The notes beneath the pieces are model-generated. The model was given only the letters and a program-made list of their open reading frames with translations, searched no databases and was not told the DNA's origin. From Flavobacteriales bacterium (GTDB taxonomy: Bacteria; Bacteroidota; Bacteroidia; Flavobacteriales_D; Sanyastnellaceae), in assembly GCA_022428285.1 (NCBI GenBank), contig JAKMCX010000116.1, forward strand, positions 1 through 48,584: a stretch of 48,584 nt of DNA. Reading direction: 5' to 3'. The position numbers and the translations under genes are program-made. Below are positions 5,534 to 7,372 of the stretch, in pieces (the first letter of the stretch is position 1; every line of letters starts with the position of its first letter).

Positions 5534-5926
5534 TCAGAATGGGAGGTCGTCGTCCGAGGCCGCTGGAGTGCCAGGGTTGAATGCTGGGGCAGCAGGGATG
5601 TCAGCAGTAGTTGCGACAGGCTCAGCCTGTCCACCGTCGCCGCCAGAAGGAGCGTCAGCCCCCATCTTCTCTACGCGCCATGCGTTCAAATCGACATAGT
5701 AGCGGTCGTTGTATTCACGGCCGCGGACGTCAAATTTGACCAGCACTTGGTCGCCTTCTTTGATTTGTCCCAATTGGTCAGACTTCTCCTTCAGCGCGGA
5801 AAACTTGACATCGGAGGGGTACTGCTCTGCAGTGGTCACAACGAACTCGCGCTTGTAGAACTCGCTCGTATCGGACTTCCAAACGTCGAACAGACGCTTG
5901 ACAGTCCCTTTCATCTCATAACTCAT
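5534..5926 (-). CDS. DUF3127 protein with SSB-like acidic tail
   Basis: A 130-residue protein matching DUF3127, a small beta-barrel domain found almost only in Bacteroidota and often described as a possible single-strand-binding-like protein. The domain fills residues 1-85 (KRLFDVWKSDTSEFYKREF, VTTAEQYPSDVKF, VKFDVRGREY, YYVDLNAWRVEK). It is followed by a low-complexity Ala/Gly/Pro/Glu linker and ends in DDDLPF, which closely resembles the partner-binding tip of bacterial SSB (DDDIPF). The ATG at 5926 avoids overlap with the flavin reductase gene ending at 5952; an ATG four codons later is possible. The molecular function is unproven. Confidence 0.8.
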   Translation of the reverse strand: MSYEMKGTVKRLFDVWKSDTSEFYKREFVVTTAEQYPSDVKFSALKEKSDQLGQIKEGDQVLVKFDVRGREYNDRYYVDLNAWRVEKMGADAPSGGDGGQAEPVATTADIPAAPAFNPGTPAASDDDLPF

Positions 5927-5951: not shown

Positions 5952-6851
5952 TCAACCAGGGTTGTACGCAAGCAAGGTCATCCACGCCCCGTCCACATCG
6001 GCCTGTTCAAGCCGCCTCCCGGCCTCTTCAAACAAGGCTTTTTCCAGTCCTGCGGCATCGTCTTCGTGCTCCATAAAGACTTCGGAAAGCTCGAGCAGCT
6101 TGTGCTCATTGACGTCGGTTTCATCCGGAAGGGCATGGGCGGAACCGAGCAGTGCCAGCTGGTTGGCGTTGAGCATCCCTGCACCAAGTATTTCCGCAGG
6201 AATCGCGTCAACGCCGATCCCCAGCCCGCCGACCGACGGTTTGGGCAGCTCAAACAAGGCGTCTCCCGAGGCCCGCACGTAGTAATTCCCTCCACACCGG
6301 CCGACCAAGTCCAGGGCATGGGCTTCGGGCTTTCCGGCGGCGTCCAAAACATCTTCAGCGATGTGCACGCGAAGAACTTCGCACACCAGCATGTGTCCGG
6401 CACCCGGTCCTTGTCCCAACTCTACGATTTGAGTCACTTTGCATTCAAAGGCCACCGGGGCTTCTGCTACCCGCGCAGGGGAGACGGCTTCGCAGTCTGC
6501 TGGGGTAAATCCAGCCTTGGCGAATTCGTCCACGTCGGCGGGGTAATCGCTGCTGCTCAATGAGGCCCCTTGAACCATGTCATGGTCCACGAGGTTCACG
6601 ACGATTTCCATGTTCTCCCGGGCATTGGCAAGGGTGTCCTTGACCGTCCCGTCCCGTCCCCTGAGGGTGGGGCCAACCACCATCACCGGGGGGTCGATGG
6701 AGAAAACATTGAAGTAGCTAAACGGTGCGAGGTTGCGGTTGCCGTCAGCATCTACCGTACTGGCCAGTGCGATGGGCCTCGGGGCAACGGTGCCCACGAG
6801 CATGGCGTAGCGTTCCTTGACGGGGTAGTCGGACGGGTTCAGCGTCCTCAT
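5952..6851 (-). CDS. Flavin reductase family protein
   Basis: A 299-residue protein with an N-terminal flavin-reductase-like split-barrel FMN-binding domain (DIM6/NTAB type). The family signature VAPRPIALASTVDADGN is at residues ~20-36, followed by LAPFSYFNVFSIDPP and later GRCGGNYYVR. The C-terminal ~90 residues are helical and charged. The reaction (NAD(P)H-dependent flavin reduction, or FMN-dependent redox chemistry) is inferred from family. The start at 6851 matches the usual family N-terminus (MRTLNPSDYPV). An ATG at 6869 overlapping the purE stop as ATGA would add six residues and suggests translational coupling. The much longer open frame upstream is antisense noise within purE. Confidence 0.8.
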   Translation of the reverse strand: MRTLNPSDYPVKERYAMLVGTVAPRPIALASTVDADGNRNLAPFSYFNVFSIDPPVMVVGPTLRGRDGTVKDTLANARENMEIVVNLVDHDMVQGASLSSSDYPADVDEFAKAGFTPADCEAVSPARVAEAPVAFECKVTQIVELGQGPGAGHMLVCEVLRVHIAEDVLDAAGKPEAHALDLVGRCGGNYYVRASGDALFELPKPSVGGLGIGVDAIPAEILGAGMLNANQLALLGSAHALPDETDVNEHKLLELSEVFMEHEDDAAGLEKALFEEAGRRLEQADVDGAWMTLLAYNPG

Positions 6852-6865
6852 GGTGCGTCCCGCGC

Positions 6866-7372
6866 TCATCCTTTTTGGATCTGACGGCCCTTGGCTTCCA
6901 CGGCATCCACGGTGCCCATCACCTTGTCGCGCAGCCCCTCGGCATAGGCATCGAGGCGCTCGGCGAGGGGGGTGTTGGACGAAGAGAGGATGCGCGCAGC
7001 CAGCAGTCCCGCATTGCGTCCCCCATCCAATGCCACGGTGGCCACTGGAATGCCAGAAGGCATTTGAAGGATGCTCAGGATGCTGTCCCAACCGTCTATG
7101 CTGTTGCTGCTTTTGACAGGAACCCCAACGACGGGGAGGCTCGTCAAAGAGGCCACCATGCCTGGAAGGTGCGCTGCACCTCCTGCTCCGGCTACGATCA
7201 CCCCGATTCCACGGTCTCGAGCAGACCGGGCGTACTCGACCATGCGGTCGGGTGTGCGGTGCGCACTCACAACGGTCATCTCATGTTCTACGCCGAGTTC
7301 CGTGAGGATTTCAGCGGTTTGTTCGAGAATGGGCAAGTCACTTTTGCTGCCCATGATGATGCCCACTTTCAT
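6866..7372 (-). CDS. purE: N5-carboxyaminoimidazole ribonucleotide mutase PurE
   Basis: A 168-residue class I PurE, which converts N5-CAIR to CAIR in de novo purine synthesis. Diagnostic motifs are present: MGSKSDLP at residues ~7-14, VVSAHRTPDRM near 35-45 with the catalytic His, and AGAGGAAHLPGMVASLT near 62-78. Length is normal. The usual partner purK is not next to it. The ATG at 7372 is chosen because MKVGIIMGSKSD is the family start, and it leaves a consensus promoter element ending only four bases upstream. The next gene overlaps or abuts its stop. Confidence 0.95.
   Translation of the reverse strand: MKVGIIMGSKSDLPILEQTAEILTELGVEHEMTVVSAHRTPDRMVEYARSARDRGIGVIVAGAGGAAHLPGMVASLTSLPVVGVPVKSSNSIDGWDSILSILQMPSGIPVATVALDGGRNAGLLAARILSSSNTPLAERLDAYAEGLRDKVMGTVDAVEAKGRQIQKG

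Follow-up and report, generated by a model that had tools for sequence, protein, structure and literature searches.

A DUF3127 gene with the layout of an SSB protein

Why a protein of the DUF3127 family should end in the kind of acidic peptide that closes bacterial single-stranded DNA-binding proteins (SSBs) is the question raised by the gene at positions 5534-5926 of the window, i.e., the whole stretch of 48,584 nucleotides analyzed here (contig JAKMCX010000116.1 of a Flavobacteriales bacterium). The initial annotation had described a small beta domain, a flexible linker and a final DDDLPF that together reproduce the SSB layout. This layout is present: the minus strand of the interval is a single open reading frame of 130 codons plus stop, starting with Met and ending in SDDDLPF, with predicted strands in residues 3-87, a 36-residue linker and the tip. 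The strand had been left unstated; the gene is on the minus strand, and the plus-strand frame across 5534-5926 is likewise open but encodes no DDDLPF-ending protein. In Pfam, residues 4-86 match PF11325 (DUF3127) with 88.3 bits against a cut-off of 27, over profile positions 1-85 of 85. The features of the locus are as follows.

5534..5926, minus strand: DUF3127 coding sequence including the stop codon, 130 aa (P0002), from the reading frame and Pfam
5663..5926, minus strand: residues 1-88, predicted SSB-type OB fold (AlphaFold2 model; Foldseek and VIA matches to SSB and PriB), with b1 at residues 3-17, b2 at 24-32, b3 at 39-45, a helix at 47-54, b4 at 60-72 and b5 at 75-87 in the model
5555..5662, minus strand: residues 89-124, linker predicted to be disordered, variable in length and sequence (pLDDT 51-71; conservation mostly below 1 bit; no K/R)
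5537..5554, minus strand: residues 125-130, C-terminal DDDLPF tip resembling the SSB C-terminal docking peptide (homolog endings and conservation)
5952..6881, minus strand: flavin reductase (PF01613, Pfam 67.9 bits), upstream of DUF3127

The linker contains no lysine or arginine and is rich in G, P, A, S, T, Q and N. As the flavin reductase gene lies on the same strand and ends 25 nt before the DUF3127 start, the two may share a transcript. The genome to which the window belongs carries one DUF3127 gene, two PF00436 SSB genes and one PriA gene.

The acidic PF tip is a trait of the family

A scan of the 2.69-Mb genome for codons spelling D-D-[L/I/V/F/M]-P-F-stop gave a single match, the DUF3127 gene. 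Conservation of the tip across the family, the check that the initial annotation had proposed, was examined in 192 loci from bacterial genomes: 31 from the phylum sample (including the window), 40 lower-ranked ones from the same sample, 80 from named genomes, 28 from another order of the window's class and 13 more from a gammaproteobacterial order. A PF C-terminus was found in 191/192 of these homologs, a set in which 4 proteins are identical to another member, the phylum-sample loci are a subset of the matches (the 30 best-scoring and 40 lower-ranked listed ones), and the named loci are the best 80 of 586, ranked by a query that contained the tip. The same ending was found in 65/80 homologs from viral contigs and in 5/5 from phage records. 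At least two acidic residues occupy positions -6 to -4 in 184 of the 191 PF-ending bacterial proteins, and position -3 is L in 145, I in 19, V in 17, M in 6, A in 3 and S in 1. The retention of PF in 191/192 bacterial versus 65/80 viral copies suggests selection within the host.

A control was drawn from 2,195 distinct other open reading frames at the homolog loci; 20 end in PF, several of them phage primase-helicases, and only 2 end in [DE][DE][LIVMA]PF, figures that are rough because the frames were called mechanically and some run off a contig end. In the 110-row alignment A3, F130 (4.00) and P129 (3.95) rank behind W83, Y36, Y76 and P37 only, and most linker positions fall below 1 bit. The PF ending is present in 101/110 rows of A3, which, like A2, leaves out L132 and L150 (frames without a PF end) and proteins shorter than 80 or longer than 180 aa. 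The tip is thus a trait of the DUF3127 family, beyond chance, and the refuting case named in the initial annotation, a tip that varies across the family, does not hold.

Among the 15 viral-contig homologs without a PF end, 4 stop right behind the OB domain, with no linker or tip (L157, L187, L191 and L206), and the others have endings such as PFA, PFS, PIF, LLF or LPW. The sole bacterial exception, from a Flavobacterium MAG (L132), has a frame that continues 7 residues beyond DDLPF, through either a lost stop codon or an assembly error.

The DUF3127 body is predicted to be an SSB-type OB fold

AlphaFold2, run with the 110-row alignment, gave block-mean pLDDT values of 91-97 for residues 1-90, arranged as b-b-b-helix-b-b, and low-confidence values of 51-71 for the tail (residues 91-130). 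When this model was compared with the PDB by Foldseek, 49 of the 50 listed rows were SSB, mtSSB or PriB (best E 6.3e-6), the odd one being the Trypanosoma protein 3k80. With VIA, a comparison confined to Foldseek's best 1000 chains, all 50 listed rows belonged to these three proteins. The top VIA match is 5odn_D, the SSB of Salinibacter ruber (Z 13.0, rmsd 1.7 A, 87 residues), an organism of the Bacteroidota/Rhodothermota group. PriB chains follow within 1 Z (3klw, 12.7; 1woc, 12.6). What had been described as a small beta domain is therefore, according to a confident model, an SSB-type OB fold, which goes further than the earlier guess. Conserved aromatics are expected in a nucleic-acid-binding OB fold, and several are kept over the 110 rows: Y36 in 106, an aromatic at 72 in 109, Y or W at 76 in 110 and W83 in 109, although matching them to the ssDNA-stacking positions of SSB would rest on a weak profile alignment.

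The sequence relation to SSB is another matter. The window protein has no PF00436 match in Pfam up to E 1, and only 3/110 homologs match PF00436 at E <= 0.01 (best 7e-4), which is not above the unrelated IF3_C (4/110). A profile of the OB domain alone matches the Bacteroidota SSB profile with a probability of 3.7% (P 0.012), and the value reaches 91% once the linker and tip are included. Similarly, the window protein's weak matches to two other phage SSB families disappear without the tail. Among four OB-only queries, L140 alone weakly matches a further phage SSB family (E 0.01); the L143 query consists of the C-terminal 89 residues, so the tip takes part in its matches to other phage SSB families. 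PDB sequence searches yielded no convincing relative, either with the single protein (best 2cfb, E 0.007) or with a 22-row profile (best 6s6b, E 0.77). Proof of homology to SSB from sequence alone thus fails in Pfam, in the profile comparison, in the OB-only phage-family search and in the 110-homolog test, and by sequence the DUF3127 OB domain stays outside Pfam's SSB family. A shared OB fold is by itself no demonstration of function.

DUF3127 coexists with the main SSB

A DUF3127 gene is present in 171/296 genomes of the phylum sample. Among the 73 sampled genomes of the window's class, G292 alone lacks it, and it was detected in 115/149 genomes of another order of that class. PF00436 SSBs are present in 293/296 phylum-sample genomes, including 169 of the 171 with DUF3127. 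As nearly every genome of this sample thus has a PF00436 protein, DUF3127 is an addition to the main SSB, and with 171/296 against 293/296 it is not itself the main genomic SSB. Replacement of the canonical SSB by DUF3127 in some lineages was considered and rejected: of the three genomes without a PF00436 match, just G024 and G220 carry DUF3127. Two to four DUF3127 matches per genome were seen in G525, G290, G045 and G460, and in G460 two copies stand in tandem, about 110 bases apart.

Outside the phylum, DUF3127 was found in 14/95 genomes of a gammaproteobacterial order and in 2/398 Pseudomonadota genomes, one of which is the sample center; a general Pseudomonadota gene is ruled out by these frequencies. 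In a DUF3127 tree computed with the tip excluded, the gammaproteobacterial copies form two separate supported clades (L313-L326, L087, L120, L130 and L143), and they were probably acquired by transfer. Their carriers include records named Haliea salexigens, Mangrovimicrobium sediminis and Amphritea opalescens. Homologs L077 (Opitutaceae MAG) and L101 (Nitrotoga MAG) possibly derive from misbinned contigs.

Gene neighborhoods on chromosomes and in phages

On bacterial chromosomes, the neighbors of DUF3127 are mostly other than repair genes. The view that the neighborhood gives no hint of a role holds in part, but the loci are not wholly silent. A flavin reductase homolog is near DUF3127 in 54/80 named loci, in 8/31 short phylum loci (including the window) and in 2/20 wide diverse loci, and dnaN is adjacent and divergent in G230 (L004/L270), G238 (L016) and L140. 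Behind dnaN, both G230 and L140 have a dnaQ/ExoX-like exonuclease gene, coaBC and a RecN-like gene; in L140, rho and recR lie on the other side. A general dnaN link is ruled out by 28 further loci of G230's order, none of which shows it; these loci span 1.5 kb per side, and in 4 of them a contig end removes more than 0.1 kb, or close to that. The priA gene adjoins DUF3127 in 1/20 diverse Bacteroidota loci (L286). The dnaN and priA links are scattered rather than general.

The window protein matches PHROG_4932, named 'single strand DNA binding protein', with E 1.7e-24 (residues 3-130 versus 1-117 of 117), and the match holds for residues 1-90 alone (E 4.8e-23). The family had been called uncharacterized in the initial annotation; this does not apply to its phage members, which already bear the SSB name in PHROGs and in NC_ phage records. 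It should be noted that 'single strand DNA binding protein' is an annotation name for a putative function. A tblastn search detected homologs in 120 phage records, and 108 of these carry the name of a Flavobacterium, Polaribacter or Cellulophaga phage. Five were inspected: within ten genes of DUF3127, phage Gundel_1 encodes NinG; morran9-1 a ParB-like protein, a primase/helicase and NinG; phi13:2 RecT and a DnaA-like protein; Fpv5 a replication initiation protein, RusA and a DNA polymerase; and phage 11b Erf. At 80 IMG/VR loci, with clusters identified by their representative, NinG was found in 22 and Erf in 21, and clusters for primase/helicase, RecE-like exonuclease and NinB/Orf each occur at 7 to 11 loci. 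These neighbors point to ssDNA transactions.

No PF00436 match above the cut-off was found in 30 viral records with DUF3127 (5 phage records and 25 IMG/VR contigs, many of them maybe fragments), a figure that stands without a baseline from phages lacking DUF3127. The lone sub-threshold match (G577, E 3.9e-4) overlaps the DUF3127 gene by coordinates. An SSB of Pantoea phage AAS23 is reported to have both SSB and DUF3127 domain hits (PMC8004638). Literature searches on SSB in Bacteroidetes/Bacteroides, on DDDIPF or naming PF11325 returned nothing, and those on Flavobacterium phages returned nothing on the DUF3127 family as judged by title and abstract opening; residue names sought in the text of PMC9917605 were not found there.

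The primase/helicase that phages with DUF3127 encode also ends in PF, in 8/8 complete viral copies (L173, L200, L203, L210, L211, L222, L226 and L177), with endings such as DDNSDVPF and DENAEIPF, two being PPF. The primase/helicase of Flavobacterium phage morran9-1 (L035:7444-9270) is likewise PF-ending.

The tip tends to match that of the host SSB

All of the 30 best-scoring Bacteroidota SSBs end in DDLPF, which is also the commonest DUF3127 ending, and the main SSB ends in DDDIPF in 16/16 paired gammaproteobacterial genomes. We compared position -3 of the two proteins in 60 genomes, a non-random set in which the I/V genomes were sought by their DUF3127 tip, their SSB tips being then unknown, and the remaining ones were taken where the coordinates of both genes were at hand. 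Both residues are I/V in 29 genomes and both are L in 19; 5 are discordant, with I/V in DUF3127 and L in the SSB in 4 genomes and the opposite pairing in one, and the other 7 fit none of these classes. For G290, which has two DUF3127 genes, L239 alone was used, and G266 was omitted for lack of its DUF3127. The I/V group comprises gammaproteobacteria, Verrucomicrobiota/Kiritimatiellota MAGs and the Bacteroidota families f22, f24 and f27, and the discordant genomes are three with DHDVPF and one with EDDVPF of family f23, and Alloprevotella. In the order of Amphritea, position -3 is I or V in 14/14 DUF3127 homologs.

The raw Fisher test for this pairing gives p 1.3e-9 over the 60 genomes, uncorrected for kinship. 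Supported branches of the DUF3127 tree provide only 4 independent pairs, of which 2 agree, none oppose and 2 are silent (p 0.5). A statistically secure covariation of tip and host was therefore set aside. With so few independent pairs, the agreement at position -3 suggests tuning to host partners and fits with it, short of proof.

The window organism itself does not follow this trend closely in its acidic residues, as its main SSB (G000:C153, L002) ends in MDASKLPF, with fewer acids than the DDDLPF of its own DUF3127. The SSB of a relative (G045) ends in the more acidic QGDDDLPF. In the second SSB of the window organism (G000:C7, L003) the tip is absent. The DUF3127 of a Pseudomonadota genome outside the 60-genome set (G692, L401) ends in NDDLPF, with the L at -3 of the Bacteroidota type, which likewise counts against the agreement; it may be a recent transfer or part of a misbinned contig.

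Proposed role and alternatives

RecO, RecQ, RecJ and others are candidate partners of the DUF3127 tip, as is PriA, which was found in the window genome. For E. coli SSB, the last Phe is reported to be buried in a hydrophobic pocket of the partner, where a basic lip contacts the carboxylate and a basic ridge contacts the Asp residues; deletion of the Phe or of the tip is reported to abolish binding in vitro and to be lethal (PMC10164576). The features that such a docking site would recognize are retained in DUF3127: a free C-terminal Phe, the Pro, a hydrophobic residue at -3 and preceding acids. A precedent for coupling them to another OB fold is an engineered PriB-SSBc fusion, which is reported to bind ssDNA better than PriB and to stimulate PriA further (PMC8509808). 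DUF3127 looks like a natural counterpart of such a PriB with an SSB tail. From the retained tip features and this precedent we infer ssDNA binding plus partner docking, and we consider it likely, with a probability of roughly 70%, that DUF3127 is an auxiliary SSB-like protein whose predicted OB fold would hold ssDNA and whose tip would dock SSB partners. The OB fold would bind ssDNA probably as an oligomer, and the free C-terminus would dock by placing its last Phe in the pockets where host replication and repair proteins take up the SSB tip. DUF3127 might thereby recruit partners to particular ssDNA sites or pass on ssDNA from the main SSB, which it would supplement rather than replace, and phages would employ it as their own SSB alongside their annealing and replication genes.

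Another explanation, which we regard as unlikely, is that of a tip-bearing adaptor or competitor, whose OB domain would have a protein or RNA as its ligand instead of ssDNA and whose tip would sequester SSB partners or shift them elsewhere. OB folds often bind ligands other than ssDNA, this one fails to join PF00436 by sequence, and its tip is almost as conserved as the most constrained domain positions, so that selection may act chiefly on partner binding. However, the nearest solved folds among the listed matches are the ssDNA-binding SSB and PriB, the phage copies sit among ssDNA-processing genes, and the aromatics at 36, 72, 76 and 83 are kept. Still less probable is a PriB-like primosome part of Bacteroidota that would act with PriA in replication restart and carry an SSB tip in addition. 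The closeness of the PriB chains to SSB in VIA, the gain of the PriB-SSBc fusion in ssDNA binding and PriA stimulation (PMC8509808) and the priA gene at L286 are in its favor. Yet PriB itself is reported to lack the SSB tail (PMC8509808), the priA adjacency is just one in 20, and use by phages apart from a PriA neighbor suits an SSB better.

It is very improbable that the tip is a by-product of SSB ancestry, kept for stability or for covering the protein's own DNA site and not for partners. Acidic tails are able to compete with ssDNA for the OB site, which would fit such a role, but the terminal residues are retained beside a linker that varies, the tip matches the host SSB variant in most pairs (few of them independent), and the stricter retention of PF in bacterial than in viral copies suggests selection within the host.

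Relation to known systems

The auxiliary SSB-like reading places DUF3127 next to several known proteins. It resembles bacterial SSB (PF00436) in its predicted OB fold, disordered linker and acidic PF tip, and differs from it in a shorter OB domain (88 residues versus 104 in the PF00436 profile), in the missing PF00436 match of the window protein and in its coexistence with the main SSB. The phage protein named as an SSB in PHROG_4932 belongs to the same family over nearly the full length, whereas the host DUF3127 is a gene of 171 of the 296 sampled genomes. PriB has a small OB fold of the same SSB type (Z up to 12.7) but is reported to lack the SSB C-terminal domain (PMC8509808), unlike the tip-bearing DUF3127.

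A further likeness is found in phage T7. Its ssDNA-binding gp2.5 and its primase-helicase gp4 have acidic C-terminal tails ending in Phe. The DUF3127 phages show an analogous tailed pair, DUF3127 and the primase-helicase, although with endings like those of host SSBs (...[VILP]PF).

If the auxiliary reading is true, a gene that is conserved and mostly single-copy in a major phylum of the gut and the environment gains a concrete and testable role, and two proteins serve the SSB-tip clients of Bacteroidota. This would bear on repair, replication restart, phage replication and recombineering in Bacteroidota and would be relevant to inhibitors that target SSB-tip pockets. A broader picture, to which we would give somewhat less than even odds, is that most Bacteroidota have two ssDNA hubs, the main SSB and a DUF3127 with a host-matched handle; that phages and transfer spread the latter into gammaproteobacteria and Verrucomicrobiota/Kiritimatiellota, with the tip retuned between L and I/V; and that phages equip both their DUF3127 and their primase-helicase with this handle, in the manner of the T7 replisome. 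Host-plasmid annotations at present say just 'DUF3127 domain-containing protein' (3/5 matches).
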